The notes under the pieces: model-generated
Databases searched by the model: none
Seen by the model: the letters and a program-made list of their open reading frames with translations, nothing else
What the model was told of the DNA's origin: nothing
Translations under genes and position numbers: made by a program
Assembly (NCBI GenBank): GCA_002989075.1
Contig: PSQN01000016.1
Span: 2,496,336-2,560,335 of the forward strand
From: Arthonia radiata
Lineage: Eukaryota; Ascomycota; Arthoniomycetes; Arthoniales; Arthoniaceae
Length of the DNA stretch: 64,000 bases
Direction of reading: 5' to 3'
Shown: positions 12,035-64,000 of the stretch, piece by piece
Layout of the letters: each line of letters opens with the position of its first letter
Numbering within the stretch: position 1 is the stretch's first letter

Positions 12035-14203
12035 ATGAGCGCAGAAACGGTACGGCTCATCCAACCCCAAAAATTTGTACGTGTTTACTAATCCGTTGTT
12101 TAGTTCGAGTTTCAAGCGGAGATCTCCCAGCTCCTGTCACTCATCATCAACACCGTCTACTCAAACAAGGAGATCTTCTTGCGAGAAATCATCTCCAACT
12201 CCTCAGACGCTCTCGACAAAATTCGATATGAGGCCCTCTCAGATCCCTCAAAATTGGAGTCGGGCAAGGATCTGCGCATCGACATCATTCCTGACAAGGA
12301 GAACAAGACTTTGACCATCCAGGATACTGGCATTGGCATGACCAAAGCTGATCTCATCAACAACTTGGGCACGATCGCACGGTCAGGCACCAAGCAGTTC
12401 ATGGAAGCACTCAGCGCTGGTGCCGATATTTCCATGATCGGTCAATTCGGTGTTGGTTTCTACTCGGCATACCTCGTCGCTGACAAAGTCACCGTGATTT
12501 CGAAGAACAACGATGACGAACAGTACATCTGGGAGTCCAGCGCAGGTGGCACATTCAAGATCACAGAGGACACTGGCAAGGATATCGGCCGTGGCACTAA
12601 GATCATTCTCTACCTCAAGGACGAGCAGACTGACTACCTGAATGAGAGCAAGATCAAGGAGGTCGTCAAGAAGCACTCCGAGTTCATCTCCTATCCTATC
12701 TACCTGCACGTCCTGAAGGAGACCGAGAAGGAGGTTCCCGATGAGGATGCGCAGGAAGAGGAGAAGGAAGAAGATGACGAAAAGAAGCCCAAGGTAGAAG
12801 AGGTTGATGATGAGGAAGAGGAGAAGAAGGAGAAAGAAAAGAAGACCAAGAAGGTGAAGGAGTCCAAGGTTGAGGAAGAAGAGCTCAACAAGACCAAGCC
12901 CATCTGGACTCGAAACCCACAAGACATCACACAAGAGGAGTACGGTTCATTCTACAAGTCGCTCTCCAACGACTGGGAGGACCACCTCGCCGTCAAGCAC
13001 TTCTCTGTCGAAGGCCAGCTCGAGTTCCGTGCTGTTCTCTTCATCCCCAAGCGTGCACCCTTCGATCTCTTCGAGACCAAGAAGACCAAGAACAACATTA
13101 AGCTGTACGTGCGACGTGTGTTCATCACGGACGACGCAACAGATCTCATCCCAGAGTGGCTCGGCTTTATCAAGGGCGTGGTCGACTCTGAGGATCTGCC
13201 ACTCAACTTATCTCGTGAGACTCTCCAGCAGAACAAGATCATGAAGGTCATCAAGAAGAACATTGTCAAGAAGACCCTGGAGCTCTTCAATGAGATCTCT
13301 GAGGACAAGGAGCAATTCGACAAGTTCTACACCGCCTTCAGCAAGAACATCAAACTCGGTATCCACGAGGACTCTCAGAACCGCCACTCCCTCGCCAAGC
13401 TTCTGCGCTACCACTCCTCCAAGTCTGGCGACGAGATCACGTCCCTTGCGGACTACATCACCCGCATGCCCGAGCACCAGAAGCAGATGTACTACATCAC
13501 TGGCGAGTCGCTCAAAGCTGTGCAGAAGTCGCCCTTCCTCGACACACTCAAGGACAAGGGTTTCGAGGTTCTCTTCTTGGTCGACCCCATCGATGAGTAT
13601 GCATTCACTCAGCTCAAAGAATACGACGGCAAGAAGCTTGTCGACATCACCAAGGACTTTGAGCTCGAGGAGACCGAGGATGAGAAGAAGGCCCGCGAGG
13701 CTGAGGAGAAGGAGTACGAGTCGCTGGCCAAGAGCCTCAAGAATGTGCTTGGCGACAAGGTCGAGAAGGTCGTTGTCAGCCACAAGCTCACCGGCGGTGC
13801 TCCGTGCGCAATTCGTACCGGCCAATTTGGTTGGTCCGCCAACATGGAGCGCATCATGAAAGCACAGGCTCTTCGCGACACCTCCATGTCCTCATACATG
13901 TCCAGCAAAAAGACCTTCGAGATCAGCCCGAAGAGCGCCATCGTTAAGGAGCTCAAGAAAAAGGTCGAGTCTGACGGCGAGAACGACCGCACTGTCAAGT
14001 CCATCACTCAGCTGCTCTTCGAGACCTCCCTGTTGGTGTCCGGCTTCACCATCGATGAGCCATCTGGCTTCGCTGAGCGCATTCACCGCCTTGTGTCTCT
14101 CGGCTTGAACATTGATGAAGAGGCCACGACTTCGGAGGAGCAGGCTGCCGAAGAGACCCCCGCCGCTGCTGCTGGCGAGTCTGCCATGGAGGAGGTCGAC
14201 TAG
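12035..14203 (+). CDS. HSP90: Cytosolic Hsp90 chaperone
   Basis: This ATP-dependent dimeric chaperone matures kinases, receptors and other clients in the cytosol. Exon 1 (12035-12049, MSAET) and exon 2 (12104-14203) are joined across a 54-nt intron (GTACGG...TTTAG), giving 704 aa. The N-terminal GHKL ATPase shows [18 protein letters not shown], the DTGIGMT loop and [16 protein letters not shown] long acidic/lysine linker spans roughly residues 215-270. The middle domain has [12 protein letters not shown] with its catalytic-loop Arg. The C-terminus ends MEEVD, the TPR co-chaperone docking motif that marks the cytosolic form. Codon use is strongly biased (CTC, AAG, GAG), as expected for an abundant protein. 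Confidence 0.97.
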
Positions 14204-15049: not shown

Positions 15050-15264
15050 AGTTGCTTGGAAATGGGTGTATGGCGCTTGATCTTGGTGTTCACGCTACCT
15101 CGTCAAAGCACTCATTGAAGTCGGGTTGGAATCGCGCTCTAGGGTAGTATTACCCTAAAATATCGAGTTTCATGTGACTTCTGCCTCCGCTCTTTCTGAT
15201 TCTCTCGACGCAATCCCATACCCACTTTCTTCAAATAAGGTTGAAGTTGCAACACGCGGCAAAT

Positions 15265-17538
15265 ATGGCGGAGGTCGAGTCAGCTGTGCGCATCCCAACA
15301 CCGCCGCCCCAGTCTCCAACTCCGCCAGGATCACCGACGCACTATGCATCGACCGGTCTCAAGCGCAAACAGCCACCTTCACGCTCGCCATCACGGGAGC
15401 GACACAGGTCTGCACGGCGCCACGAAGACTACGACGATGAGCGCGATCTCATTCGCGCCCAGAAGCAGGCGCATGCAAAGGACACCAAACCAATGACGGA
15501 AGAAGAGAAAGCCGCACAGGCCAAGAAGGACTTCCTTTCTCTGCGCTCTGGCGGTGCTTACATACCACCGGCCCGACTGCGGGCTATGCAAGCCAGCATT
15601 CCGCAGGATAAGAAGAGCGAAGACTTCCAAAAATTAGCGCACGACGCAAGGAAGAAGTCGATCAATGGCCTGGTAAACAAGTTGAATACGGGCAACATCA
15701 AGTCCATTTGCGAGGAAAGCTTCAACGAGGATCTAATCAAGGCACGAGGCCTTCTATGCCAGTCACTGTTGAAAGCGCAAGCGGCGAGCTTGTCGTTCAC
15801 GCCCGTGTACGCAGCGTATGCCACGGTTATCAACTCGAAACTGCCCATGATTGGGGAGCTTCTGCAGAACAGATTGGTCAATCGATGGGCAAAAGGTTTC
15901 AAAAGGAACGAAAAGGCCGTCTGTGTGTCTGCGACGCAGTTTTTGGCGCACCTATGCAACCAGGACGTGGTGTCTTATATCGTGCTCGCGAACATGCTAC
16001 AGATGCTGTTGGAGAAACCGACGGATGACTCAGTTGAGATTGCAGTCAACCTGATGAGGGAGCTTGGACAACATCTGGAGGAGTCGAATATGCCCATTGC
16101 AACGCTGCTTTATGATCGACTGCGACAGATTCTGCAGGAGTCAAATTTGGAGAAGCGGACCCTCTACGCCATCGAGGTGCTTTTCCAGGTCAGGCGAGAT
16201 AAATACTCCAACAACCCAGCTATACCCGAGGGACTCGACATCGTGCCAGACGATGACAAGGTTACTTTGGAAGCGCTGCAGCCTGATCAATTTCTCAAGG
16301 CCGATCCTCAGAACGCGTTGAACGTCTTCAAGTTCGACCCCGACTACGAGGAGAACGAAGCGGCTTGGAAGAAGATGCGTGATGAGATCTTCGGCGAGGG
16401 CAGCGACGAAGAAGAGGGATCTGGGTCAGAGGGAGGCTCAGAGTCGGAATCTGAAGACGAATCAGACGCCGAAGCTCATGCCCAGGATGTCAAAGATCTT
16501 ACGGCGGACGAGCTTGTGCAGCTGCGTCGGCGCATTTACTTGACCATCACCTCGTCATCCGCGTTCGAAGAAGCAACTCACAAACTCATGAAGATCCAAC
16601 TACCCGCTGGTAAAGAACAAGAGCTGTCACTCATGCTCGTGGAGACTTGCAGCCAGCGTCCGACCTACGAAAAATTCTTTGGCTTCATCGGACAGCGCCT
16701 GTGCGAGATACGCAGGGACGTGCGCGAGCAATTCGAACAGGCTTTTACGCACTACTATGAAGGCATCCACCGCTACGACAGCAACCGTCTCCGTGCTATC
16801 GCTCAATTCTTCGCTCACCTCCTCGGCACAGAAGCCATCGGCTGGTACGTCTTCCAGAACGTCATACTCACCGAAGAGGATACTACATCTTCATCCCGTA
16901 TCTTCATCATGATCCTCTTCCAGGGCTTGGTCGAGGAGATGGGCATCAAGAAGCTGCAAGCAAAGTTCAGAGACGCCACATTACGCCCTTACTACACAAG
17001 TCTATTCCCTACCGACAACCAGAAGAACACACGCTTCGCCATCAACTATTTCACCTCCATCCATATGGGTGCGCTGACGGAAGACATGCGCGAGGCTCTC
17101 GCCAACATGCCCAAAGCACCTGCACCAGTACTACCTGCCATTAATAGACGCTCGCCTAGCCCCTCCGAACGCTCGTTCTCAAGCAGCTACTACAGCTACT
17201 CCGGCTCCAGCCGCTCACGCTCACGCTCCGTCTCCGACAGACGATCACGATCACGCTCACGTTCCTTCTCCGACAGACGATCACGATCACGCTCACGTTC
17301 CGTCTCCGACAGACGATCAAGATCACGCTCACGCTCCGTCTCCGACAGACGATCACGATCACGCTCACGCTCACGAGCAAGATCTTACGACTCGCGATCT
17401 CCAGCTCACGGTAGTCGTGGCCGTCCATCAGCCAGAGGACGACGAAGAAGCTACACTCGCTCGAGGTCGCCACCGCGAAGGAGGAGGTCGCCCAGTTACT
17501 CGAGGAGCAGGACGCCGCCGAGGCGGGGCGGACGTTGA
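15265..17538 (+). CDS. CWC22: Pre-mRNA-splicing factor CWC22
   Basis: CWC22 is a spliceosome component; in animals it also recruits eIF4A3 for exon-junction-complex deposition. It is a single exon of 757 aa. The start is the ATG giving MAEVESAVRIPTPPP, as no upstream in-frame ATG exists. A MIF4G domain spans about residues 125-330 (SINGLVNKLNTGNIK, RWAKGFKRNEKAVC). An acidic GSDEEEGSGSEGGSESESED linker is followed by an MA3 domain at about 410-530 (LRRRIYLTITSSSAFEEATHKL). A C-terminal RS region from about 630 contains a 12-residue tandem repeat. The RS tail is longer than in yeast but usual for filamentous fungi. Confidence 0.94.
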   Translation: MAEVESAVRIPTPPPQSPTPPGSPTHYASTGLKRKQPPSRSPSRERHRSARRHEDYDDERDLIRAQKQAHAKDTKPMTEEEKAAQAKKDFLSLRSGGAYIPPARLRAMQASIPQDKKSEDFQKLAHDARKKSINGLVNKLNTGNIKSICEESFNEDLIKARGLLCQSLLKAQAASLSFTPVYAAYATVINSKLPMIGELLQNRLVNRWAKGFKRNEKAVCVSATQFLAHLCNQDVVSYIVLANMLQMLLEKPTDDSVEIAVNLMRELGQHLEESNMPIATLLYDRLRQILQESNLEKRTLYAIEVLFQVRRDKYSNNPAIPEGLDIVPDDDKVTLEALQPDQFLKADPQNALNVFKFDPDYEENEAAWKKMRDEIFGEGSDEEEGSGSEGGSESESEDESDAEAHAQDVKDLTADELVQLRRRIYLTITSSSAFEEATHKLMKIQLPAGKEQELSLMLVETCSQRPTYEKFFGFIGQRLCEIRRDVREQFEQAFTHYYEGIHRYDSNRLRAIAQFFAHLLGTEAIGWYVFQNVILTEEDTTSSSRIFIMILFQGLVEEMGIKKLQAKFRDATLRPYYTSLFPTDNQKNTRFAINYFTSIHMGALTEDMREALANMPKAPAPVLPAINRRSPSPSERSFSSSYYSYSGSSRSRSRSVSDRRSRSRSRSFSDRRSRSRSRSVSDRRSRSRSRSVSDRRSRSRSRSRARSYDSRSPAHGSRGRPSARGRRRSYTRSRSPPRRRRSPSYSRSRTPPRRGGR
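17231..17374 (+). repeat. 36-bp coding tandem repeat in the CWC22 RS domain
   Basis: Four near-identical 36-bp units start at 17231, 17267, 17303 and 17339. Each encodes a 12-residue S(V/F)SDRRSRSRSR block. Differences are few single bases, so the array is probably young and may vary in copy number. Confidence 0.9.
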
Positions 17539-30931: not shown

Positions 30932-31855
30932 TCACAACCCCTCCCCCAAGACCTCCGCCTCCCTATACCCCTCAGCCCTCACCTGAATCTGCATACTCTC
31001 CAACATCCGCCCCTTCATCTCCCTCGCTTTCTCCTCCACTGTCTCCCCCTTCCCCCTAATATCCATTCCCATAAACGCCCCATGCGTCACCTCCCAATTG
31101 AATCCCTTCACAGCCCTCCACAGCCCCATGACCTCCCCAGGCGGCAACGGAATACTATTAGGAATACTCCACTGGAACACATAGCTGATCTGCCCCTTCG
31201 GCCTCGGATGCGGCGTATGCGCGCTCGGCACCGTCACGATCGTATCCGCGATGAAGAGCTTGCGGTTCCAGTGCAGGAGCAGCGAGCCGGGGAAGTGACC
31301 GCCGGCTTTGATCGCTGTGACGCCTGGTATGATTTCCTTGGTGCTGCCTTGAGGTCCTTCCATGTATGCGTGGGAGGTGGACGTGAGCGGAGGCCGGCAG
31401 AACCACTCCTTGTCATCTGAGGCGACATGAATCGGCACATTGGGGAACGCAGCGCTCCATTCAGCATGCGTAGTGTAGTAATGCGGATGGCTTATAATCA
31501 TCGCTTTAAGCTCGCCCTTGGAGTTGATGAAGTCGACCGTCTCCTGGTCGAGCAGGCAGATCATATCCCAGAGCACATTGCCGTGTTCCGTGACCAGCAG
31601 GAAAGCGCGCTGCCCGATTCCGGCCTTGGGCTCGATGTGGATGGACCAGAGGCGGGGGTCGGCAGCGTCCTGCGTGAAGATGTTGTGGTGGTTTTGGCGG
31701 AGCGAGCGGAGGGTCGTCCAGGTTTGGCCGGACGCGGGGACGAATTGGCGGGGATCGTCGCAGATCTTGCAGTTGCGAGGGATGGTGTTGGGGGTGTGCT
31801 GCGTGCCGCAGGTGGCGCAGATGGGGGCGTCGAGGGTGGGTGTGTTGGTTGTCAT
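30932..31855 (-). CDS. Metallo-beta-lactamase-fold protein with N-terminal zinc ribbon
   Basis: Single exon, 307 aa from the ATG at 31855 (MTTNTPTLDAPICATCG). The frame is open upstream, but this Met gives the usual N-terminus. Two CxxC knuckles (CATC, CKIC followed by DDPRQFV) form a probable zinc ribbon. The MBL part shows AFLLVTEHGNVLWDM, then the metal-site strand ISHPHYYTTHAEW, AGGHFPGSLLLHW (with the next His) and KLFIADTIVTVPS (Asp). The signature is HPHYYTTH instead of HxHxDH, so the usual Asp and following His are shifted or replaced. Fungal homologues with this architecture have no assigned reaction that I know. Confidence 0.87.
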   Translation of the reverse strand: MTTNTPTLDAPICATCGTQHTPNTIPRNCKICDDPRQFVPASGQTWTTLRSLRQNHHNIFTQDAADPRLWSIHIEPKAGIGQRAFLLVTEHGNVLWDMICLLDQETVDFINSKGELKAMIISHPHYYTTHAEWSAAFPNVPIHVASDDKEWFCRPPLTSTSHAYMEGPQGSTKEIIPGVTAIKAGGHFPGSLLLHWNRKLFIADTIVTVPSAHTPHPRPKGQISYVFQWSIPNSIPLPPGEVMGLWRAVKGFNWEVTHGAFMGMDIRGKGETVEEKAREMKGRMLESMQIQVRAEGYREAEVLGEGL

Positions 31856-32761
31856 GGTTGGGGGTTGCGTGCCTGCTTGTTTGGGTGTGGGATACCAGTT
31901 GATGCTCGTGTTGGTACTGATGCAACGAGTGTGTGTGATACCTTCTTCTAACACTTAGTGCAAACAATCTTCTTGAGATACCTGAGCCTGACTCTATGGA
32001 CGCAGTATCGAGCGAGACTTAGATATTCCAGCCACGCGGGACGTAGGTGTAAGCGGAAGGCTTCAAATCCTGGGAATCAATCCTCGTACGCGCTTCTAAT
32101 CTTCTCTAAGTTATGTCGATGCAAAGACTGTGCTCTTGCCTACAGCTACCGTATATATACGTTTAACATCTAGCGATGAAGCTTGGGCTTCCGAAGCCCC
32201 GCTTTGAACGATTACTTAGCTGGTCCTAGCGAGTAAGGAGATGCACTGTAAGCATGATATTATTACTCGAAAACCTAAAGCCTGGGTGGCAAATAGCTTC
32301 CGAGGAGCTTTCATAGCAGAGCAGCCGTGTCCACGTGAGACGTGTTCATCCCTTGAAGGGCTTACTTGGGCCTGCTAGAGGACATTCTCTCAAATAGCAC
32401 AATCAATCCTGTCCACAAAGAATAATCGTGATGAGCACGGAAGCCACATTAGCACTGCTTGACAAGGACAGCATCGATTGTATGAGAGAGACTTCTGGGA
32501 GGTTGCAGCCAGATTTAGACCGCGGGCTGATTTCCAACGCCACTAGTGGATAGCCTTCCCCTAGCAACGCCTTACCGGATAGGAGGCTCATCATCCGCAA
32601 GACCGAGTTTCGGTCCGGAACCTCGGCGGAGACTCGCGTTGGAGCCCGTCCGTCGAGATGAGTAGGAATACTTTATGCTGCTAGAAGCTTTCACTGGCCG
32701 ACGAGCCGAGCGAGCCACGAGTATCTCCTTGAAGCTTTCGGGCAATCAGTAATACAGCGAA
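31856..32761. other. Divergent intergenic region, MBL-fold and dienelactone hydrolase genes
   Basis: About 900 bp. It contains a CACGTG E-box at 32332-32337, an ATATATA stretch near 32153 and a small hairpin GGGCTT/AAGCCC at 32185-32199. No gene recognised. Confidence 0.45.
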
Positions 32762-34245: not shown

Positions 34246-34521
34246 TGTAGATCGGTCGTTGTCAATACGTATGGATGCGAACCTTGTAGGGTGAAGCTCG
34301 AGGCCTTCTCTCGCGTCTTTTCACGTGCGCAAGTTAAGTTAGTGGAGATTATATAGAGGTGTATAAGTACATACAATTATAATGCAGTTGAAAGTATCAG
34401 GTTAGTTTAAGACAGTCATTGTGAGCTATTGACCCATCAGTCCAGTGTATAACGAACGCTATGATGGATGACCACCGACTAGTAAGAATATATTATTTAT
34501 TGGTGAGGGCTTGGCATTAGC
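34246..34521. other. Intergenic DNA upstream of the tRNA gene
   Basis: About 275 bp, AT-leaning, ending in the TATA-like stretch at 34487. No gene. Confidence 0.45.
34487..34500 (+). promoter_or_regulatory. TATA-like element upstream of the tRNA gene
   Basis: AATATATTATTTAT lies 22-35 nt before the tRNA 5' end, where TFIIIB binds in tRNA genes that use an upstream TATA (well known in fission yeast). The assignment rests on position and composition. Confidence 0.45.
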
Positions 34522-34537
34522 GACGCGGTGGCCGAGT

Positions 34538-34596
34538 GTACGTATCTTGGAAGGAAGATATACCCTGAGCACAGCTATATTAACGCTCAAACGCAG
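34538..34596 (+). other. 59-nt intron-like insertion in the tRNA D-loop
   Basis: It begins GTACGT and ends CGCAG, with ATTAACGC 15-20 nt before the end, matching the signals and length of spliceosomal introns in the neighbouring genes. It interrupts GCCGAGT^GGTTAAGGC, just before the conserved G18-G19. It also contains a hairpin, TATCTT at 34543-34548 with AAGATA at 34555-34560. No target-site duplication is evident. Confidence 0.65.
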
Positions 34597-34617
34597 GGTT
34601 AAGGCGATAGACTTGAA

Positions 34618-34631
34618 TACTACGTTCAGAT
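34618..34631 (+). other. Canonical 14-nt tRNA intron in the anticodon loop
   Basis: It lies between A37 and A38, one base after the anticodon. It contains TTCA, complementary to TGAA of the anticodon loop, which is the usual anticodon-intron pairing recognised by tRNA splicing endonuclease. Confidence 0.7.
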
Positions 34632-34660
34632 ATCTATTGGGTTCGCCCTCGCAAGTTCGA

Positions 34661-34711
34661 GCATGTTATACCACTCTTACTATAACTATGACCTCACTAA
34701 CAGCGATAAAG
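34661..34711 (+). other. 51-nt intron-like insertion in the tRNA T-loop
   Basis: Removing it restores TTCGA+AT between T-stem halves GCAAG and CTTGT. It begins GCATGT, ends AAAG and holds CACTAAC 11-17 nt before the end, so it resembles a GC-AG spliceosomal intron. A shift of one base (CA...GA) is equally possible from sequence and would give loop TTCGAGT. It contains the inverted repeat GTTATA (34665)/TATAAC (34681). Confidence 0.62.
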
Positions 34712-34744
34712 ATCTTGTCCGCGTCGAATACCCCTCTACATTTA

Positions 34745-34751
34745 TTTTTTT
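34745..34751 (+). terminator. Run of seven T after the tRNA gene
   Basis: A T7 tract starts 19 nt after the tRNA's last base, as expected for an RNA polymerase III terminator. No run of four or more T occurs inside the interrupted gene. Confidence 0.5.
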
Positions 34752-35568
34752 AATGCCGCCTAGTTTATAAACGTACCCGCTAAACGGTGAGTATAAAGTT
34801 TTGCTTGTTTTTCATTTGTGTATATTACAACCATTTATTTTGCCGGGTGCTCACGCAGTAGTTGCTATAGTCTATGTGTAGACAGACACAGCTCTGATCA
34901 ATGAGAGCAACCAATGTGAGATGATATCCTGCATCAATAAGGTGATTGGTCCTCCCGTAACCATACTGGATATGGACCCTCATGTCTCTCCCTCTCCTTT
35001 TTCGAGATCTTCAACCTCATATCTCACTCGCAAAATCTACGAAGCCACGAATCGAGAGGAGAAGAGGTTATTCCTACACTTGCGTGACGTCTCACTGCCA
35101 TTGTTTTTGTTACATCTCAAGCTTGGTATATATATGCACGAACAGCTGCTATCGTACATATCAAAGAAAACACCCGTACCATGAAGGCGCGCTTGTGAAT
35201 CGAGACACGAATTTCACCATATCACAGATGTGTGAGATGTTGAGCGCATACGTAGGAATGATCTGTCTGCAGATCGGCCGAAACCCCAGAAAGAATCTGG
35301 CGTAGCAGAGACTTTGTAAAGCTAGAGACATTTCTCAGTCCTAGCGGAGGCTCTGTCAACGGCTCTGAGGACGGGTTGACAAGCTGTCCCGACACGCACG
35401 ATAACGCAACGACTCGGGTTCAGCGTCTTCTCAGCGCCGTTGCTTTCGTTGCATCTCGAGCCTAGGTATGTATGCACAAACGGCTACTCAATGCTTCTAT
35501 ACGCCCACACCCTCTCCCTCGCTCAGTCCTTCCTCCCACCACCACCCCAGCACCACCATCACCACAAC
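34752..35568. other. Gene-free stretch between tRNA and ABM-type gene
   Basis: About 820 bp with short open frames lacking any domain. Nothing recognised. Confidence 0.45.
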
Positions 35569-37218: not shown

Positions 37219-39279
37219 TCACTCCTTCGAGCTCCCTTTGAGTATCTCGTTTTCCTCCTGTAACGCCTTGATATACTCAATAGCATTCTCCACAGTCGCC
37301 GCCTTAGAGTTGCCGCTCTGAATGGCCGTCGCTTGCTTCTGATTATTACCTCCACTTCCACTGCCCTCCGCTTCTTTGACCTTGTCAGCAAATTTCGGCG
37401 GAAATAGCGTCTGCAATTCTTTCAATGCATCGTTGATTCTATTGCGTCGTCCCTGCTCGGCAAGCTTGTGTGATGTACGCTTAGAACTCAGGTTGGCGCC
37501 CAGCTCTGGGGGATACGAGACTCCTTCCGGGTGGTTGCCGGAGAGTATGTTCTCGTAGTTGGACTTGGATGCTAGCAGCAGCGCCTGTGTCTGGGCATCA
37601 AACCCGCCTACTCCTTTGTTTAGCCTCTGAAGCATCTAAGACGTTGCATGATCATGACTTACTGCCTCCAGGAAGTAAAGGCTTCATGCCGGGCGATACC
37701 CTGGGCCTGAGCGCCGGACTCACGAGGTTCGACCCGCTGCTGTTTCGCTTCTTGGATCCTCTGCCACCTTTGCTCTCTGATTCTTGCATCCCAACGGGAC
37801 CAACAGGAGATGTCACCGAACTTGCAGGCCTGGGACTTTCACTGTTAGAGTCAACAAGGTGCGGTGGTGGCCTGACTGTAGCATTCTCATTCCGAGATTG
37901 GCTATTGCTGCTCGAACCTGATCCTGATGCGGCTGCTTCTGGAAGACTCAAAAACTCCATATGCGATTCCAACGTAGACGTGGACGGGCTCTGTTGTATT
38001 CTGGTAGGGTCGTCACCAGAGTTGACTCTTCCACTGCCAGTACGCGCGGAGGTCTTGTCCTTCATCATAGACGCTGGTGTGGCTGGGTTTGGAGCATCGT
38101 TTGTACTCTCACCGGATCGACGAGGTGTAGCTTGCGTCGGGGTAGTAACAGTCGACGATGGCTTTGGAGGCGGTGCCATGGAATTCTCAATAGAGAGACG
38201 AGGTGATAGCGAGCTCTCAGCAGAGTCGCTCAATCGAGGAGCGGACGTGGGCCCTGCCAAAATCATTCGGTCCTTACCTTGCAGAGCTTTTGCTGAGGTG
38301 GAACCCGCACCGCCCTTTGGGGGTATGTGGACGTTCAACGAGTCTTTCCGAGTCGTATTGTTCGCGGTAGCCTTCCTTGTGCGCATACCTGATGTAGTCG
38401 ATCTCGTGGCAGGTGCGGCTTTCTTGCGAGATTTGCGCGGCCTTTCCTCAGCCTGACCTGCAATTGCCTCAGGGTCGACTTCCAGTCTCTCGTTGCTTGG
38501 CGATGCACCCAGCGAGCTCCCTGCGGTGCGCGGTGCAGACCGTGGTGTTTGATTTGGACGTATCTGAGGGTTCATTGCAGGCGAAGGAATCGGGCTCAGA
38601 GCGAAAGAGCCAGGAGGGTTGTAGTCAGGGATGTACGACATGGCACTAGGCATACCGTCGGTGCCGGGTGACTCGTACGGGGTGAATATATTCTGCGCCA
38701 AGTTAGTCAGGGCGAGGATGGTTGACATAACAAGGTGAGTCCACTGACCAGGTCGATGCCAGGCCTCTGGAAGCCCTGGTGCATTTGCTGTTGCTGGTGA
38801 TGTCTCGCCTGCTGCATTTGCTGTTGCAAACGCATATACTCGTGATTCTTCCCATACAGTTCTGAGCTGTTTGGCGTCGGGAGCGCACCACGCATGGCAT
38901 TCTCGAGTGCATCGTTGTGGTCCTGCTGAGCGAATTGGCCTGGTGCGAATGTGTCGAAGGCACTTATCGAAGGTGGCCCAAATGGCTGCTGTGGCCCAGA
39001 GTGACCGGACGTCGTGGGCCTCGAGGACTGACCGAAGAATTGTGCAGTCTGATCGAATCCATGATGCTCGGTCGATTGCACCAGACTCTCGCCAAATGGT
39101 GGCTGCGTCACGTTCTGACCGCCGTCGAAGCTCCCGAGGTTAGTGAAGTCCGAGCCCAGGTATTCAGGATTCAAGAAATTCGCAAAGTCGTCGTCGGCAA
39201 TGTCGTGCATGTCGAGGCCCATGCTCGTCGGATCAGAACCAGCCTGGGCCCAAGTGTGATCATTGTTGTGCTGATTCAT
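37219..39279 (-). CDS. bHLH transcription factor, PHO4/NUC-1 type
   Basis: This is the likely regulator of phosphate acquisition. Three exons (39279-38749, 38692-37663, 37607-37219) give 649 aa. Intron 2 is GTAAGT...GTAG, 55 nt, with branch GCTAAAC; it joins KPLLPGGS to GFDAQTQALLLASKSNY and was chosen because other pairs break the frame or are too short. The bHLH at the C-terminus has basic region SSKRTSHKLAEQGRRNRIND and helix 2 AATVENAIEYIKALQEE. The Glu in KLAEQGRR is the E-box-reading residue. The KRTSHKxAEQGRRNRIN wording is close to Neurospora NUC-1. The rest is Gln-rich early and Ser/Pro-rich in the middle. Confidence 0.85.
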
Positions 39280-40443: not shown

Positions 40444-41934
40444 TCAGAAGTCGTGGAACAGATGGCCATGTCTGAGTAGGTAGATCGTCAGCTTACGAAC
40501 AACTTGACAAGGCCGAGGATATGGTAACTTACTCGTCCTTACCCTTCTGGCCATACTGCTCAGTCTCCTCAGGGTACCTGTCGAACAGACTGGCATCGCC
40601 CTCGCCCTGCTTGATTGGCGGCACATAAGGCGCATCAATGTCCTTTTTGCCCAACCGCTCCCAGGTGACCTCAACGAACCACGTATGCGACATCACGTCC
40701 TGACTGCCGCCGACCAAGTTGCCCAATCGCTTAGAAAGGTCCTTCGTGATGAGTTTCTCGAGGAGATCTTGAGCATCCGGGTGGATATAAGGAGGGTACT
40801 TAACCTTCCCCTTCAAAATGTTCTCGTAGATTTTCATCGCTGAGCCTTGATCGTAAAACGGTGTGAAGCCGCATAGCATTTCGTAGATCAGGATACCGAG
40901 TGACCACCAGTCGACGGACTTGCCGTAGCCCTTGGAGGCTACGACTTCCGGTGCAAGGTAGTCGGGTGTTCCGCAAAGTGTCCAGGTGATATCTGGTACT
41001 TCCTTTGCGAAGCCAAAATCGGTGATCTTGATGTGGCCGTTCCTGTCCAATAGCAGGTTCTCGGGCTTCAAGTCGCGGTAGATGATGTTCAGGGAATGCA
41101 GGTAGTCAAGCGCTAATGCTACTTCGGCAGCATAGAACTTCGCGACTGGATTGGGGAAGCGCTGACAGCCACGTTAGTCTCGGCTCGACCACAGGACAGT
41201 CTTTTACCAACCTGCGATTTGCGCAACAAGCTGAACAGCTCACCGCCTTCCACAAAGTCCATCACCATGTAGAGATTCTTGCTGTCGTTGAATGTGCCCC
41301 ACAGTGTAATCAAAAACGGATGCTTGACCTTGGCCAGCATCTTCCTCTCATCGTTTGTGTGCTCCACCTGCTTCATCTTGACGACCTGCGCCTTCTTCAA
41401 AACCTTGATGGCATAGTACCGTTGATTGTGTTTGCTCTTCACGAGATGCACGCGTCCAAAGCTGCCCGTGCCCAGCGTCCTCCGAAAGTCAAAGTCCGTC
41501 AACGAGTACTTGCCCTTGGTCGCTTTCGCATCGCGCATCACTGGCCACGAACCGTCAGCCATCTGCCGCACACCTGATCCACCATACTGCGGCGGCTTGC
41601 CTTGCGCCTGAGGTGGCTGCATGGTAGGCAAAGCGCCGTCCGCGCCCATGGGATCACTAGTCTTGACAGCGTGTCCCTGGGACTCTAAAGCATTCTGCTG
41701 CGCCTGGTTGGGGTCAACGGGATGGGGCGAGGTGGGGTCTTGCTCGAGATTGCTTTCGTCGAGTGGCCCCTTTGTCCCTTGAGTGGTGGTCTTTGATAGG
41801 TTGGAAGAGACAGGTGTTGCGGAAGTCGGGGTGCCGCTCTCTTGCGAGGAAGGAGAGGCCGGGGTTTGAGTGTCGCTGCTGGCGTCTTTGTCTCGCGTCC
41901 GTTTCTTCTTCAACAAAGAGCCGAGATGAGGCAT
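40444..41934 (-). CDS. pkaC: cAMP-dependent protein kinase catalytic subunit
   Basis: This Ser/Thr kinase is released from its regulatory subunit by cAMP; it controls growth, morphogenesis and nutrient responses. Three exons (41934-41212, 41161-40533, 40471-40444) give 459 aa. The first intron (50 nt) splits [13 protein letters not shown]. The last (61 nt, GTAAGT...CTCAG) replaces a misleading in-frame stop and adds EHGHLFHDF, the hydrophobic C-terminal motif typical of PKA. The kinase core shows GTGSFGRV near residue 152, [24 protein letters not shown], activation segment [14 protein letters not shown] and the AGC-tail FDRYPEE. The first 135 residues are Ser/Thr/Gln-rich, as in other filamentous fungi. 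Confidence 0.95.
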
Positions 41935-46367: not shown

Positions 46368-48341
46368 CTACTTTTGTTGCGTCTTCAAAGACTCGACCTC
46401 TCTTGTCAGGGTATCAATCTTGTCGCTCTGTGCCTTGATGAAAGAATTTTGTGTTTCCAGCAGAGCCTTGATGTCATCCAATTGACCCTTGAGATTCTGC
46501 GTTGCGCCTGATAGACTTCCTGAGGAGGTCGATCGATGTCCACTAGCGTTTGTATTCGATTGCTCAGGAGCTTTAGGTGCCGACATTGCCGTGCTGGTGG
46601 GCCCCGAGCTTGATGATGTCGGTGATTGCGGCTGCAAGCCAAGAGCGACCGATGGCATTTCTGACGGCATTGCGTTTGCTGTTGTAGGTGTAGACGTCGG
46701 AATCGGCGCGAAAGATGAAGGGTTTGCACGATTCGCTGTTGGTCGTTCTGCAGGTTTCGGTACCTCTTCAAAGCTCGAGGTTTCCTCATCGGATGATTCT
46801 TCAGGCTTGTCATCGTACTTACTGGCGATATCTGCCATGGATGCCTTGTTCTCATTCAGTGATTGCGGTGGGCCACGAGAGGCGCCTATGGTGGCTGGTG
46901 CGGCAGCTGCTTGAGGCGGCTCACGCTCCTTTGACGCAGATGGTTCTTCAACCTTGGGTGGAGGCGAAGTGACAGGAGCAAACGACGGCTGGCTCTCTGC
47001 CGGTACTTCCTTCAGTCCTTCGCCATCGAACACGCTTTCAAGAGAAATCTTAGGGGGAATGCCATCTTTGCCGGCGAACCACTGGCTGGCGGTGACGGCG
47101 GGTTTCGTGCCTTGGCAAGGGGGATAGATGTCGCTTTGGAATGCTTCTGCTCGTCTTGGTGCAATGAAAGAGACAGGCTCGATGTATTGGTCGTTGACGG
47201 TCTTGAAAGCTCGCGTAAGCTCCGTCTCATGCGTGTTGACTCCTCGCTTCGGCATGAAAGCGACCCCTCGCTGCGGATCTCCTGAGGAGTACTGAGAGAG
47301 GTATTCGAACTTGTCGTTCTCATACTCGTAGTACCGGATGTTCCCGTCACCTTTTCCTGCTAGATACAGTACGTTAGTGCCTTCATCCCAGAATGGCATG
47401 CATACGCCAGATATCTGATCCAATATTTGAAAGCCGTCGAGAGGCTCACGTGCGGCGCGTATGTCCCATAAGCCCAGCTGACGGTCCGACATCTTCGAGA
47501 AGCCGGTAGTTGCGACGCGATCATGCTCGCCCATCCAGACCACACGACTGTTCTTTGCACCTGAATGACCAGGTGTCTCAATTGCTGGTCTCTGAGCTCG
47601 CGCATCCCATACTCTCAGCTTCTTATCCCGGCAGGTGGTGACCAATAGCGCGCCGTTCGCACTCCACGAGAGCGACTGGATAATGTCGCCATGGTTCAGT
47701 GTCAATCTTGCCTGGCCATTTTCAAGATCCCATAGCTTCACCGTATAGTCACCAGATGAGCTTGCCAACACGTTCTCTGCAGCCGGGTTGAAGAGCACGT
47801 GTCCAACCTTCCTTGGATGGCCCGGAAGCTTGCTCACAGGACTGACGTCTTGAATCTCGTCAGGCTTTTTCTTTGGTCGTAAGGTGAAATCCTCGGGCAC
47901 CTTCCACAAAGCAATCTTGCCGTCATCAGACGCAGAAGCGAGCAGGTCATCGTGGAACGGGTTCCAATCTGTGTCTAAAACTGCTGCTGTGTGTCCCCGG
48001 AAGAGAGGTATTTGATCAGGGAGCTTTCCGCGCTCATCCAAAGGTATTACTGCAAAAGCACCACCGCCAGACGCTTGCCAATTGACCGAGAGATATTCTG
48101 GGTTGACTTTGATGAGGTTGGTGTCCCACGCGTTTGCCGAGACTCTAATGTTGTCATAGCATTGCTCCTGCAAGTCCGTCAGCTATCGGACTGCGCACTA
48201 CTACCGTTTGCGCTCCGTACCTTCTTGGTCGACCGGCCAAAAACATGCCCTATTTAGCGGGTGGTCAGCTATGAGCTCTCCGTTTTGGTGTTGGTACAAC
48301 AACTCACGGAATTTGGATGCTCTCACGAAGCGACCCGCCAT
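46368..48341 (-). CDS. CRN1: Coronin
   Basis: Coronin binds F-actin and regulates Arp2/3 at cortical patches. Three exons (48341-48308, 48249-48221, 48167-46368) give 620 aa. The two 5' exons encode MAGRFVRASKFRHVFGRSTKK, the conserved coronin head, followed by EQCYDNIRVSANAWDTNLIKVN. A seven-bladed WD40 propeller follows (DTDWNPFHDDLLASASDDG, GDYTVKLWDLENG, DKKLRVWDAR, LGLWDIRAA). The coronin C-terminal extension has VNDQYIEPVSFIAPRR and FQSDIYPPCQGTKPAVTASQW. A Ser/Pro linker leads to a C-terminal coiled coil (QNLKGQLDDIKALLETQNSF) for oligomerisation. Introns are 58 and 53 nt. Confidence 0.95.
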
Positions 48342-51852: not shown

Positions 51853-53593
51853 ATGGATTCAGAAACCGACAAGATATTGCAAAGGAAGTACCCTGCAAGA
51901 ACACATCTGCGCAAGGTCACCGAGTACTTGCGCAAGAATGACCCCTCCTTCGCCACATCCAGCGTGCTGTACGCTGAAGCTGCACATACAAGCTTCTGGT
52001 AAGTACCCCGTGATTGCCCAGGCCGACATCCACGTTTCGCGCCTCCACGCATCTTGCTCCATCAGACTACACGACTTTTTCGAAGGAGCAGAAGCAGCGT
52101 CCAACATACCGCAAGCTCCCCCATCATCTCCCACTAATCACAACCAACCAGGCCAAACTGTGACCAAGAATCCCCCTTCCGCCAATCCCGCTCCTTCTTC
52201 TACCTCACCGGCTGCGACCTCCCCGACTGCAGCATCGCCTACGACGTCGCCACAGACCACAGCACGCTCTTCATCCCGCTCGTCGTCGAGGACGAAGTAA
52301 TCTGGTCTGGCCTCCCCCTCTCCCCGCAGGAAGCCCTCTCCAAATACGACGTCGACACCGTCAAAACCGCCAAAGACATCAACCACGTCCTCAATGGCGC
52401 GGCCAATAGCAGCAAAAGCAAGATCTACGCCATCGACAAGCACGTTTCGGATTCTGTCACCTTTCTCAACTTCGAGGCCACGGATATGGTCAAGCTCAAA
52501 GACGCCATTGACGAGTGCCGCGTCACGAAGGATGAGTACGAGATCGCGCTTCTCCGGAAAGCGAACGCCGTCACGAATATCGCGCACCGCGCGGTGCTGA
52601 AAGCGGCGAAGACCGCGAATAACGAACGCCAGCTTGCTGCGATCTTTGTGGAACGTTGTACTGCACACGGCGCGCATAACCAGGCTTACTCCCCTATCGT
52701 CGCCTCTGGTACCGACGCCGCGACATTGCACTACGTCCGCAACAACAAGGCTATCACCTCTTCGACCCTCAATCTTCTAATAGACGCCGGCGCCGAGTTC
52801 GACGTCTACGCCGCGGACGTCACGCGCACTTTCCCTATCAATGGGAAGTTCTCGCCCGAGTCGCGCGAGATCTATAACCTTGTGCTGGATATGCAGACGC
52901 AATGTATGGCCATGCTGAAACCCGGCGTAGATTGGGATCAGGTACACGCGCTGGCGCACAAGATCGCAGCGGAGGGGCTGGTGAAGCTAGGGATATTGAA
53001 GGGGAAAGTGGAAGATATCCTGGCGGCGCGGACGACGACGCTGTTCTTCCCGCATGGGCTGGGGCATTACCTGGGGATGGATACGCATGACACGGTGAGC
53101 TTGGCTTCCTTTTGTTTGCATGTATCATTGGTCCTTCTCCTTCCTCACTCTTCCTCAGCACCCTCCCTCCCTCAACACCTCACCCTTCCTCAACACATCG
53201 CCCTCCTCAATACCCCACCACCCTCAAAACCTCACACATCCCCAACACCCTCCCCCCGTTCCTCCCACTAACGACCCCCCCCAGGGCGGCCACCCCAACC
53301 CCCACGACACCGATACAATGTACCGCTACCTCCGCAAGCGAGGCACGCTCCCCACGCACGCCGTCATCACCGTCGAGCCCGGCATCTACTTCTGCCGGTT
53401 CATCATCGAGCCGGCGCTGAAGAACCCCGCGCACGCGCAGTACATTGATACAGGGGTGCTGGACCGGTACTGGGCGGCGGGCGGCGTGCGGATCGAGGAC
53501 GATGTGTTGATCACGGAGACGGGGTTTGAGAATCTGACGGAGGGGCTGGTAAGAGATGTGGAGGGACTGGAGAGGGTGATGGCGGAGGGGTGA
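51853..53593 (+). CDS. Xaa-Pro aminopeptidase/prolidase (M24B)
   Basis: A metallopeptidase that cuts Xaa-Pro bonds during peptide recycling in the cytosol. Three exons (51853-51998, 52152-53094, 53285-53593) give 465 aa. The start gives [20 protein letters not shown], the usual head. Intron 1 is 153 nt and restores [22 protein letters not shown]. Intron 2 is 190 nt, very pyrimidine-rich, and joins MDTHDT to GGHPNPHD. The pita-bread metal ligands are visible: Asp in [18 protein letters not shown] (two), His in [16 protein letters not shown], Glu in VEPGIYF and Glu in [10 protein letters not shown]. Codons turn markedly GC-rich in exons 2-3, unlike exon 1. Confidence 0.9.
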
Positions 53594-58471: not shown

Positions 58472-59120
58472 CTTTAGAAATGAATGTCAGCAAAAGCGTT
58501 CGGTGGAAATCGTAGGGTCAGGGATTGCAAGCTGGAGAAGAAGGAAGGCGTGACTGGGCGCTTGGTGATTGTACGGTCTCATGACGCGTGCAAACGGCCA
58601 GAGGAGTTGTGCACAAGACACAAACGTGAAGACGAACCTTGCAGACAAGCTGCCTGACAAAGGCAGCTCTGACAGCGCGAATTAGGAAGTTATTGGCGGT
58701 GCCAAATGTCGGAGACGAAAAGCGCAGGAAAAGGTGCCGTTCAAGCCTCAGGACAGATTAGGTTGCGGGCTGCAAAAGGTGTCATGAACATTGAGCGCAT
58801 AGCTAAGAGGGCGTTTATTGGTGGTTTGTCAAGGTGTAAGCTGATGAAATTGCGTAAGAACCTCGCAAGTCTGTCGACGAGGCTTTGTGAGATTGACAAT
58901 AGCAGGCGAAATATTTTGAATACTATCCTCACACTTCGCGATGTTGTTGTTGTTGTTGTTGTATTCATACGCCGACCCAACCCTGGCAGGGTTATGCGGG
59001 AGCAGATATATCGCTATACTACATCAAGAAATTTTGTACCTGCCGGTCCCCGCTTTCGGGCAGGGTACGCGCGGGCAGGGCGCCTAGAACTACGTGCAGC
59101 ACAGACCACTGCATCAGACT
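58472..59120. other. Transition zone between core genes and the AT-rich block
   Basis: About 650 bp, probably including the unresolved first exon or leader of the deubiquitinase gene. It holds a TTG microsatellite. GC-rich hairpin-forming sequence lies at about 59041-59085, just before base composition collapses. Confidence 0.45.
58942..58962. repeat. Trinucleotide microsatellite (TGT)7
   Basis: An uninterrupted TGT repeat of 21 nt. It lies 170 bp left of the AT-rich block and could belong to a degraded element end, which I cannot show. Confidence 0.85.
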
Positions 59121-59130
59121 TTATACTATT

Positions 59131-62100
59131 CTAAATTAACCCTATATAAGCTAAACTACGTCCAAATATACCCTAAATTGCTAAATCGTAAGCCTAACTA
59201 TAAGCTCTACTAATTTATAAAGTCCTCTCTGGAGCCTACTAAAAAGCCTCTATTCTCTATTTTATCTCTTTCTTGCTTATATTCCTTCTAAGATACTAAA
59301 GAGCCCTCTTGCTATAGAGTATACTTAAGTAAAGTTTATTATTAACTATAGAATAGTATAAAAGTAAAGGTATTCTATTATTTATTTAAAAAAGGCTAGA
59401 GAAAGATAAACTATATACCTTTATATCTCTCTAAAATACTAAAAAGCCTTCTTACTATAGAGTACGCCTAAGTAAAGTTTAATATTAAGTACTTATTATT
59501 ACAGAGTAAAGGTACTCTATCGATATTTAATAAAAGCTAAAAGAAGAAGAGATAATATTAATAAATATATTCTACTTCTTAATTATTTTATTAATATAGA
59601 TTATTATAAGTATAGTTATATAGTAAATATAATTGTATAGCAAATCTTATATATAGTTATATAACCGCTTAGTTGTTATATAGGCTCTAGTAGAGAGCTT
59701 AGTACTAGCCTACTAGCATACTTAATAGTTATTAATATTAAATACTTTTAGTAATAGCGATAGTAGTAAAGTAAGCTCTATTAGAAGAGAAGCCGCTACT
59801 ACTCTATAATACAGTCTTAACGGCTCTTTCTCTCTATTTCTCTAAGTAAGACGGCTTATAGTAAGATATAGAGGGGTTAGGTAGTATAGTTAGAAAGTTA
59901 ATAGTTGCTATATATTTATAAGTATCTATACTATAGATAGTTCTTCTAGCGTTATAAAGTCTTCTATTAGAATTATTTTAACAGTATTTATAACGCCGGT
60001 TGCTAGAAGAACTAAACTAAGGCTTATATATCTTATATACTTATTAACCTTAGTAATAAGTATCTTGTATACTAGAGACTAAAATATAGGAGAGATAAAA
60101 TAGATTATAAAGAATAAAAGAGGCTTAATTAAGTAAATAAAAGATAAAGTACGTTACTTAAATATAGTTAAGAAACTTAAATTTAAGTATTAAGTTAATA
60201 AACTAAAGTCTCTTAAAGATCGGCTATTAGTTTAGCTATATAGTTTAAGGTATATAAGTATATTTCTTTATATTTAACGGTTTTAGTAATCTCTTTATTA
60301 TATTATTAAGTTTTTATTACAATATAGTAACGTTACTAACGTTGCTATATTAAAGTTATTAGATATCCTATATAACGCTCTAATAAGGCTAGTTATACTT
60401 AGTCTTGTACTAGCTTAATATAGTAAGCTTGTAATATAAGGTCTTTTTTTTAAAGTTAGTGGTTTTTATAAGCTTTAAAGATATTAAAACTTTATTATTA
60501 CTTAGTAATAGATTTAATTCTATAAGTCGTTATACTTAAAATTAAGAAGGCCTTTAACGCTAATAAAGCGCTTAAGATTAATACTATTCTTACTAAAGTT
60601 TGTAGTTAAAAGATATCTCTGTATTCCTGTTACTCTTATTTAAGCAAAAAGTGTGTCTTAAAGCTTAGAAAGATATTGTATTTTGTGTATATTTATAATA
60701 AAAAGTTGTATAACGTACGTTTATCGTTAAAAGATAGTTAGTCTCTATCTTACTATTGTTTACTAGTTCTAAATTATTTCTAGCTTAGAGTATCTATTCT
60801 TAGTACTTATAGGTATTTAATACTCTTTAAAAGTAGTATAAGCGTTTAGCAAAAGAAAAGAAAGTTGTTTGTATAGCAAAATAGTAGCATAAAGTTATTA
60901 AGACAGCAGTTATTAATTTAAAAAAGAAGCTTAAAAGGTTGTATATTTAGACGCAGAACAAAATAAATTAAAATAATATATTGTTTAAGGAAAAACAGCT
61001 AACGGCTATATTTAAGGATAATATTATAGATATACTAAGTAAATTAAGTATAGATTTTTATAAGAATCTATATCTAAAGTTAGGTAGTAGACCTATAACG
61101 TAGTAAGCTAGTTTATTTATAGATAGTTTTTGTACGCTGAACATATATTAGATAGTAAATTAGAATATTAACAATATAGATACCAGTTAATATCTATTAA
61201 ATTAAACTGGCTGTTTTAAAGATTAAGAATACTCCTTTAGCCTAGTTTAATTTTAATATTGTTAGATCTTTTCTTTATAGTTAGCAAGGTTTTATTCTAG
61301 TTTCTACTAGTTTTTATATTTAAAATATTCTTTTTATTTAATAAGGTACTGTTATTTATCTCGGTATTGTTTATAAACATAAACTATTTTAACCTTACAT
61401 TCGGATTCTTAGTTTTTATATAGAATCTCTAGATTAGGTCGCTCTGCCTTTTATATATAGACTAGTTTTAGTAGCGTTATATAGAATATAGAGTATATTC
61501 TTATAGTTCTTAGAAGTTTAAGTTTAAACGTTATAGGTCTTAGTTACTATAAGTTTTTAAATAGTCTTGTCTTTATATAGTCAAGTTTTTTACTTAGTTT
61601 AGTAGTTTTTAAGTTTCTTATAAGTAAGTAAGCTCTTCTCTCCTCTTTAATACTTATATTTAGGGTAGTTCTTATTTTGTTATACTATCTTTTTGTACGT
61701 TTATTAATATACTCGCTATTTAACTTTAACTACTAGTATAGGGCTTTTATATTTGTAGCTATTTATATAGCTGTTTTGTTGTCTATTGTATTTTAGAGTT
61801 ATTTATCTTAAAGAGAATAATAGCTATATAAGACGTAAAACGGAGTTATCTTAGTTATATCGTTCTTTATATTATTATACGCGGCTTATATAACTAGTAG
61901 TAACTATACTTAATTATTTTACTAGTAGTTAATATATACTTAGAGGGTATTGTTTTAAGGTTTAATTTGTTCTTTTAGTCTATCTGTCTGTTTACAGGTA
62001 AAATAAAGTTAATATTTTTTATTTAGTTTCTAATTATTGTATTAGAGATATCTAAAATTGTAAGACAAATTTTTAATTTCTATTAGAGATAATCTTTTAC

Positions 62101-64000
62101 GGTTAACCGTAGTTAGCTAAGATAATTCTAAAGAACGTATATATTAGTTATTCTAAGTTACTAGCTCTTCTATAGAGTATAAAGTATACGTACTTAATTA
62201 GTTTATTGTAAATAACGAGAATAGTATTGTAAGCTACTCTTATTAGTAAGTCCCTAAATAGCGGTAATTTAGTAATAAAGTCTAATAAGATCGTATACTA
62301 TAGTCTATTAGATATCTTAAGTAATTGTAATTCGCTATAAGATAAATATTTTAGATATTTTATTCTTACGCATATATTGTATTTTTAGATATAATTCTCG
62401 ATGTAGTGTTGGATTTTTGGAATATAATATATTTGAGTAATTTTTTTAATTAGATTGTCTATATTTTTATATTCTTTTGTTAAATTATCGTAAAAGTTGC
62501 TAATAATATATCGAATTAGGTTTATTAGAATATATATTTTTTATTAAACTAGAATATTGCTTTTCATCTTCTTAATAGGTTTTAGAGTCGTTTAGAATGT
62601 CTAGTATTTAACTATTTAGTTTAATAATAAATTCTGTTGTTATAGCTAATTAATTGTACTTAATTTTATTATTATATTCTTAAAATACAGTATATTCGAT
62701 ATATTCTTTGTTATTTAAGTAATTTAGTCTTTAACTTAAAGTATCTACTCTGTCGTTCTTTAAACTCTTTTGATAAATAATAATAAAGTTGTATAAAGCT
62801 ATAGTTTTTAATTATTAAACCTATCTTTAGTTAAGTTTCTTTACTATTATAAAATAAGTTAGGTTTTTATAGTCGATATATACTATAATTATATATTGTA
62901 CTTCTTTTAAGTAAACTCGCTATATCTTAAATACTGCTATAATAGCTAAAAGCTCTTTATTATAAATATTATAGTTCTACTTTATAAGTAATATTTTTTT
63001 AAGTAAAAAGCTACTAGTTTAAGCTTTCTTTCGTTATTATTTTAACTATATATACTTTAATAATATATTTTAACGCGTTTATATCTATAATAATTAGTAA
63101 GTTAGGGTTAAATATTACTAATACTAGTTTAATCTTAAAAGCTTTTTTAAGCTCTTTAAATATTAATTATTCTTTTTATATCTAAAAGATTTCTATTAAA
63201 TATTTTGTTTATTAAGATAGTGACGCTATAATTTAAGCTAAAGTTAAATATTTATCACTTATAATAGTTAATAAAACTAAAAAACTATTATAGTCATTTT
63301 ATATTCTTTAGTATAGGCTATATTAAGATAGATTAAATCTTTAAATTTTCTATTTAAAGCTTATACTTAGTAATTATAAATCTAAGAAATTTAATAGATT
63401 GTTAGTAAAACTAGATATTCTTAATATTAATTTATAAATTAGTACGTATTAATCTTTTTAATATCTTTTTAATATCTTTTTTATATTCTTTTAGTATATA
63501 GCTATATACTAGAATATCGTTTAAATAAATAGTTATAAATATATCTAGATAGTCGCTAAGTATATTATTAATTAGTTCTTAAAATAATATAGATACGTTT
63601 ATTAGCTTAAAGAGTATAATACAATACTTAAAAAGTTTATATCTTATATAGAAAATAGTTTTCTATTCTTTATCTTTCTTTATATAAATTAAGTTATAGG
63701 CTTTTTATAGGTTAAACTTAGTAAACTATTATATATTATATAATTAGTCTATAATTTTGTTAATATATAGTAACAAATATCGATTTTTAATAGTTATTCT
63801 ATTTAATTATCTATAGTTTATATAAAGTTATAGTTTACTATTCTTTTTTAGTATAAAGAGTATTAAATATTTAGTTAGTAATATTAATTTTTAAATAAAA
63901 CCTTTCTTCAAGTTTTTATTTAAATAATTGCAGAGTATTTAATTTTCTACTTCTAATAAAAAGTATATTAAACCGAATATTAATATTTTATCTATTTATA
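59131..64000 (-). mobile_element. Decayed Ty3/Gypsy LTR retrotransposon in an AT-rich, RIP-like block
   Basis: Base composition changes abruptly near 59.12 kb to very AT-rich, TA-dense sequence running off the right edge. Minus-strand remnants of pol in the order reverse transcriptase, RNase H, integrase read toward lower coordinates: an RT active-site signature of the YLxDILVYS kind at 63501-63540, an RNase H-like start near 63.05-63.10 kb, and an integrase-core-like stretch near 62.15-62.40 kb. This order and wording indicate Ty3/Gypsy. The element is broken throughout, with dozens of disruptions. Its 5' part lies beyond the window and I could not define the LTRs. The left 2 kb may be another element. 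Age cannot be read from divergence because RIP inflates it. Confidence 0.8.
59288..59573. repeat. Imperfect tandem repeat of about 143 bp inside the AT-rich block
   Basis: The segment starting CTAAGATACTAAAGAGCC at 59288 recurs as CTAAAATACTAAAAAGCC at 59431. They stay alignable (CTATAGAGTA, TAAGTAAAGTTTA, GTAAAGGTA). Differences are mostly transitions. Confidence 0.6.

Follow-up and report, generated by a model that had tools for sequence, protein, structure and literature searches.

A tRNA-Ser(UGA) gene in four exons, separated by three inserts, lies at positions 34522-34726 on the forward strand of the 64,000-nt stretch of Arthonia radiata DNA that we analysed (referred to here as the window). 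Exon 1 (34522-34537) holds the 5' strand of the acceptor stem, the 5' strand of the D stem and the start of the D loop, which is followed by insert 1 (59 nt, 34538-34596), a candidate GT-AG spliceosomal intron. Exon 2 (34597-34617) continues with the rest of the D arm, the 5' strand of the anticodon stem, the anticodon TGA and A37, and is separated by the 14-nt insert 2 (34618-34631) from exon 3 (34632-34660), which comprises the 3' strand of the anticodon stem, the variable arm, the 5' strand of the T stem and the T-loop bases TTCGA. Insert 3 (51 nt, 34661-34711) interrupts the T loop and reads as a putative GC-AG spliceosomal intron whose ends possibly lie 1-2 nt further on, and exon 4 (34712-34726) supplies the end of the T loop, the 3' strands of the T and acceptor stems and the discriminator G. 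The exon assignments rest on ARAGORN, which calls the exons joined after removal of 59, 14 and 51 nt as an 81-nt tRNA-Ser(tga), a class II cloverleaf with anticodon TGA, seven acceptor pairs, five anticodon-stem pairs and a T stem of five pairs, one of which is G-T. An initial annotation of this DNA had proposed an 81-nt tRNA-Ser(UGA) split by inserts of exactly these sizes, with 7/7 acceptor pairs, a 5/5 anticodon stem, a single G-T pair in the T stem and the same anticodon, and the ARAGORN model confirms it throughout. No tRNA was called by ARAGORN in the uncut 205 nt of 34522-34726 or in the whole raw window, and Rfam returned no match at gathering scores across the whole window and none at E values up to 10 in 34400-34850.

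The recovery of a tRNA was also examined by systematic excision of all pairs of GT...AG or GC...AG cuts of at least 26 nt, 41 of which fall in 34522-34617 and 12 in 34632-34726, giving 492 combinations in which the 14-nt insert was left in place. Products of 78-110 nt were obtained from 220 of the 492 pairs, and ARAGORN called a tRNA in six of these: four tRNA-Ser(tga), one tRNA-Asn and one tRNA-Pro. In all six, the 3' cut was exactly 34661-34711, making insert 3 the sole 3' excision of the 12 ever to yield a tRNA, and among the four Ser(tga) products only the one bounded by GTACGT and CGCAG gives an 81-nt tRNA. Single excisions of the same GT...AG or GC...AG type did not produce a tRNA in any of 53 cases. 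Recovery of the tRNA by paired excision is beyond chance.

Insert 2 is an ordinary 37/38 tRNA intron. When it alone is kept in the sequence, ARAGORN sets the insertion at 37-38, and, as read from the sequence, its TTCA is complementary to TGAA in the anticodon loop, allowing a pairing like that of other pre-tRNA introns. We scored all three inserts for a bulge-helix-bulge, defined as a central helix of 4 bp flanked at the junctions by bulges of 3 nt, with the intron-side helix added to the score; insert 2 forms three of four central pairs, and its total was reached by 315 of 5000 shuffles.

A reference for inserts 1 and 3 was provided by a scoring model built from seven protein-gene introns in the window, read by hand from genes with recognisable proteins. 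Alignment confirms two of the seven, an Hsp90 intron (12050-12103, forward strand) and a PKA intron (41162-41211, reverse strand), in each of which the joined protein aligns through the junction with a solved structure; for PKA the best solved match is 1fot (502.7 bits), which we take to be the S. cerevisiae enzyme, followed by 4dfy (370.4 bits), presumably the mammalian enzyme. The other five, namely two coronin introns (48250-48307 and 48168-48220, reverse strand), two introns of a bHLH gene (38693-38748 and 37614-37662, reverse strand) and one of an M24 peptidase gene (53095-53284, forward strand), are supported by reading frame and by the sequences expected for their protein families. The second bHLH intron (37614-37662) is doubtful, as it starts with GTAAGT but the frame demands that it end in AAAG or, three bases on, in GGAG, neither of which is the usual YAG. 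An attempt to learn introns from codon usage had given 12 candidates and no clear set, and was replaced by the hand-read introns. The training introns measure 49, 50, 53, 54, 56, 58 and 190 nt, a host range into which inserts 1 and 3 fall at 59 and 51 nt, and matches to CAGGTAAGT number five of nine in both inserts and five to seven of nine in the seven protein-gene introns. Neither insert has a match longer than 15 nt elsewhere in the window.

Insert 1, which has the form GTACGT...ATTAACG...CGCAG, looks like a GT-AG spliceosomal intron, and its excision gives back GAGTGGTTAAGG exactly. By our reading of the sequence, a 59-nt excision gives back the tRNA in just two placements, one of which is exactly GT-AG. 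Its score in the seven-intron model, 17.6 bits, is lower than that of every training intron (18.6-21.1 bits). Among 127,872 placements of this length on both strands of the window, two attain that value, both of them insert 1 itself, and 6 of 20,000 shuffles do so; the placement result is the same when the doubtful bHLH intron is dropped from the model. Its branch site, ATTAACG, scores 5.3 bits against 7.7-10.1 bits in the training introns and carries a T at the position where all seven have the C of the host-type CTRAY. A hairpin of 7 bp with a 6-nt loop and one G-U pair is predicted at 34542-34561, immediately downstream of the 5' splice site in insert 1, and the minimum folding energies, which are given as computed and without a shuffle control, are -10.7 kcal/mol for insert 1 and -3.5 kcal/mol for insert 3.

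Insert 3 is probably a spliceosomal intron as well, on evidence weaker than that for insert 1. Read as GC-AG, it takes the form GCATGT...CACTAACA...TAAAG and leaves the T loop TTCGAAT, with the qualification that its end is ambiguous, a 7-nt T loop being kept by three placements (TTCGAAT, TTCGAGT and TTCGAGC). The branch-like site CACTAACA (CTAAC) is good and well placed, lying 12 nt ahead of the acceptor and matching the host-type CTRAY, and the weak points are its two ends, a GC donor, which is rare, and an AAG acceptor, both of them poor. The resulting 9.0 bits fall far under the range of the training introns and are reached by 589 of 127,888 window placements (0.46%) in the seven-intron model, by 1551 of 127,888 (1.2%) in a six-intron model from which the second bHLH intron was left out, and by 177 of 20,000 shuffles.

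We also examined signals for transcription by RNA polymerase III, for which the internal consensus sequences are TRGYNNARNNG for the A box and GWTCRANNC for the B box. On the forward strand, an A box, TGGCCGAGTGT, agrees with the consensus at 10 of 11 positions and spans the join of exon 1 and insert 1 (34529-34539), and a B box, GTTCGAGCA, agrees at eight of nine and spans the join of exon 3 and insert 3 (34655-34663). Some 20-35 bp upstream of the tRNA lies an A/T-only stretch, AATATATTATTTATT (34487-34501), which may serve as a TATA-like element for Pol III, and downstream a run of seven T (T7, 34745-34751) could act as a terminator; from a point 100 bp before the tRNA up to this run, the sequence has no stretch of four or more consecutive T. 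Since a loose pattern of A box, B box and T5 occurs in 53 combinations in the window, the boxes and T run are not usable as statistical evidence, and the arrangement is best described as compatible with Pol III transcription, without amounting to proof of it.

Around the gene, the nearest ORFs of at least 200 aa are one ending at 31954 and one beginning at 35440; the former (30932-31954, reverse strand, 340 aa) has no Pfam match at E values up to 0.001. The spliceosome factor CWC22/cwf22 has a relative in an ORF at 15241-17538 on the forward strand, whose best match among solved structures is 9esh at 606 bits; this ORF lies 17 kb from the tRNA, and we claim no link between the two. At the far end of the window (59001-64000), GC content falls sharply to 16-34% beside gene-rich DNA of about 50-58% GC, and in 500-bp steps from about 59 kb the ratio TpA/ApT is 1.35-2.04 and (CpA+TpG)/(ApC+GpT) is 0.14-0.45, a pattern suggesting that repeat-induced point mutation has acted on an AT-rich block. 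Taken with the PKA match to 1fot, it would make a filamentous ascomycete the likely source.

What the locus presents directly are four exons, an exact tRNA product and splice-site-like signals. We consider it probable, from the sequence, that these belong to a working tRNA-Ser(UGA) gene that carries two spliceosomal introns, a GT-AG intron in the D loop and a GC-AG intron in the T loop, together with a 37/38 tRNA intron. Pol III would initiate on the near-intact A and B boxes, which overlap the exon/insert joins, and would terminate at the T7 run. The spliceosome would then excise inserts 1 and 3, using predicted branch points in ATTAACG and CACTAACA, a step to which the splice signals and the exact restoration of the tRNA point, and tRNA endonuclease and ligase would remove the 14-nt insert, as both its location and its ability to pair with the anticodon loop suggest. 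End trimming followed by CCA addition, with which tRNA maturation ends, would complete the tRNA. Inserts 1 and 3 themselves may have arisen by intron gain such as reverse splicing. On balance we also favour the more specific proposal that maturation would need both the spliceosome, for the D- and T-loop introns, and the tRNA endonuclease, and that the spliceosomal introns sit just behind the Pol III boxes in a way that would preserve transcription.

The main alternative, an unlikely one, is that the locus is a dead or dispensable copy, in which two recent insertions have occurred while an uninterrupted second tRNA-Ser(UGA) gene does the work and the stems have not yet decayed. Our tRNA survey covers the 64,000-nt window, and such a second gene could stand elsewhere in the genome; moreover, according to a review, D- and T-arm insertions in eukaryotic tRNA genes mostly affect a single member of a set of many synonymous genes and are taken for marks of pseudogenes (PMC4090602). 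Against this, chance DNA would not be expected to bring GT-AG ends and a branch-like site exactly where their removal restores the tRNA, as is the case for insert 1, whose score is matched among the 127,872 window placements by the insert itself alone. All stems are intact, although genuine introns could also sit in a gene copy that has become superfluous. The initial annotation had offered a choice between a living gene and a recently interrupted copy; the balance now leans toward the living gene because a machine present in every such fungus could remove the inserts exactly.

With respect to insert 3, there is a small chance that the route is mixed, with insert 1 removed by the spliceosome and insert 3 released by tRNA endonuclease acting on a fold at 59/60 that resembles a bulge-helix-bulge, which would leave the T loop TTCGAGT. 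In one of its three placements, that taken one base further, insert 3 forms three of four central pairs (one of them G-T) and three of four intron-side pairs, which 153 of 5000 shuffles equal, and 59/60 is among the archaeal sites listed in PMC4090602. The yeast tRNA endonuclease, according to a review, cleaves strictly at 37/38 (PMC4033280), which is evidence against an endonuclease route for insert 3, and the spliceosomal reading of this insert has the lower chance rate in both the seven-intron model and the smaller one. The spliceosomal reading of insert 3 is the one that we prefer. As for self-splicing, group I introns follow an end rule by which a U precedes the 5' splice site and a G ends the intron, and in this minimal form the rule holds for insert 1 (T/G...G/) and for none of the three placements of insert 3. 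Group I introns as small as 56-81 nt are described in fungal rRNA genes (PMC3160393), and our search of 34400-34850 matched no Rfam family at E values up to 10, a search that so small a form might escape.

Two further explanations fare worse. Splice signals have Pol II transcripts as their normal substrate, so the locus might instead give rise to a Pol II noncoding transcript spliced like an mRNA, in which the tRNA is only resembled or is a by-product. This we regard as very improbable, given that the intact 37/38 intron, the near-intact A and B boxes and the T7 run suggest Pol III, even if the boxes alone carry no statistical weight, and that the flanking ORFs of at least 200 aa end as far away as 31954 and begin only at 35440. 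It is hardly credible that a tRNA endonuclease accounts for the removal of all three inserts, on the model of the red alga Cyanidioschyzon merolae, whose tRNA-Ile(UAU) has introns at 12/13, 37/38 and 53/54 in its D, anticodon and T arms (PMC9602550), since insert 1 forms two of four central pairs in either placement, with a best total reached by 1907 of 5000 shuffles and thus at chance level, and yet has GT-AG signals; with pairing no better than that of shuffles, an endonuclease route for this insert is unsupported.

A working gene with two spliceosomal introns and one tRNA intron, as we propose, has partial counterparts. Fungal U6 snRNA genes, which are transcribed by Pol III, can carry mRNA-type introns; they are alike in combining spliceosomal introns with a Pol III gene in fungi, but encode an snRNA and are not known to have internal A and B boxes in coding stems or to involve a second splicing machine. 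The ordinary fungal 37/38 pre-tRNA intron is matched by insert 2, whereas inserts 1 and 3 lie elsewhere and are by their look of another kind. In lichen-fungal rRNA genes, PMC8527467 describes spliceosomal introns that are removed there, and yeast removed one such intron from its own rRNA. These resemble our inserts, as we read them, in being small (57 bp in the one moved to yeast), spliceosomal and situated in a gene that encodes a structural RNA and is transcribed by a polymerase other than Pol II, and they differ in belonging to Pol I-transcribed rRNA, in the lack of an endonuclease intron in the same gene and in that removal was shown there and is inferred here. The multi-intron tRNA genes of C. 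merolae differ in being described with bulge-helix-bulge motifs and in their positions, 12/13, 37/38 and 53/54 (PMC9602550), compared with spliceosomal-looking inserts that here follow T16 of the D loop and lie at 58/59 in our own numbering. The earlier comparison with archaeal and red-algal introns of the D and T arms finds no support in insert 1, which pairs at the level of shuffles and fits GT-AG, and insert 3 is compatible with either reading.

The initial annotation was right to regard insertions away from 37/38 as out of the ordinary in a fungus: in the tRNAscan-SE 2.0 paper eukaryotic tRNA genes are described as limited to one intron (PMC8450103), and the strictness ascribed to the yeast enzyme (PMC4033280) agrees. 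Among the matches listed from the openly licensed PMC literature, preprints excluded, none described a tRNA gene with spliceosomal introns. A pattern for the D-loop intron had no match in the viral contigs and none in the genome contigs searched, but a pattern for an uninterrupted tRNA-Ser(UGA) of fungal type likewise had none in either, and these collections therefore offer no fungal comparison. A looser T-loop pattern hit 14 viral loci, which we took as chance; ARAGORN called a tRNA in two of the 14 (L001 and L011), away from the pattern in each.

If this interpretation is correct, the spliceosome would reach into the making of tRNA, and the maturation of a single small RNA would depend on two splicing machineries unrelated to each other. 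Together with the rRNA introns of lichen fungi (PMC8527467) and those of U6, spliceosomal introns would then be present in structural RNA genes of both Pol I and Pol III. Spliceosome action on the precursor of a tRNA would become directly testable, as would the gain of introns by a non-coding gene. It would also follow that eukaryotic tRNA annotation that expects a single 37/38 intron may overlook entire genes, this one having escaped both ARAGORN and Rfam, and that some fungi apparently without a given tRNA may carry that tRNA in multi-intron form.
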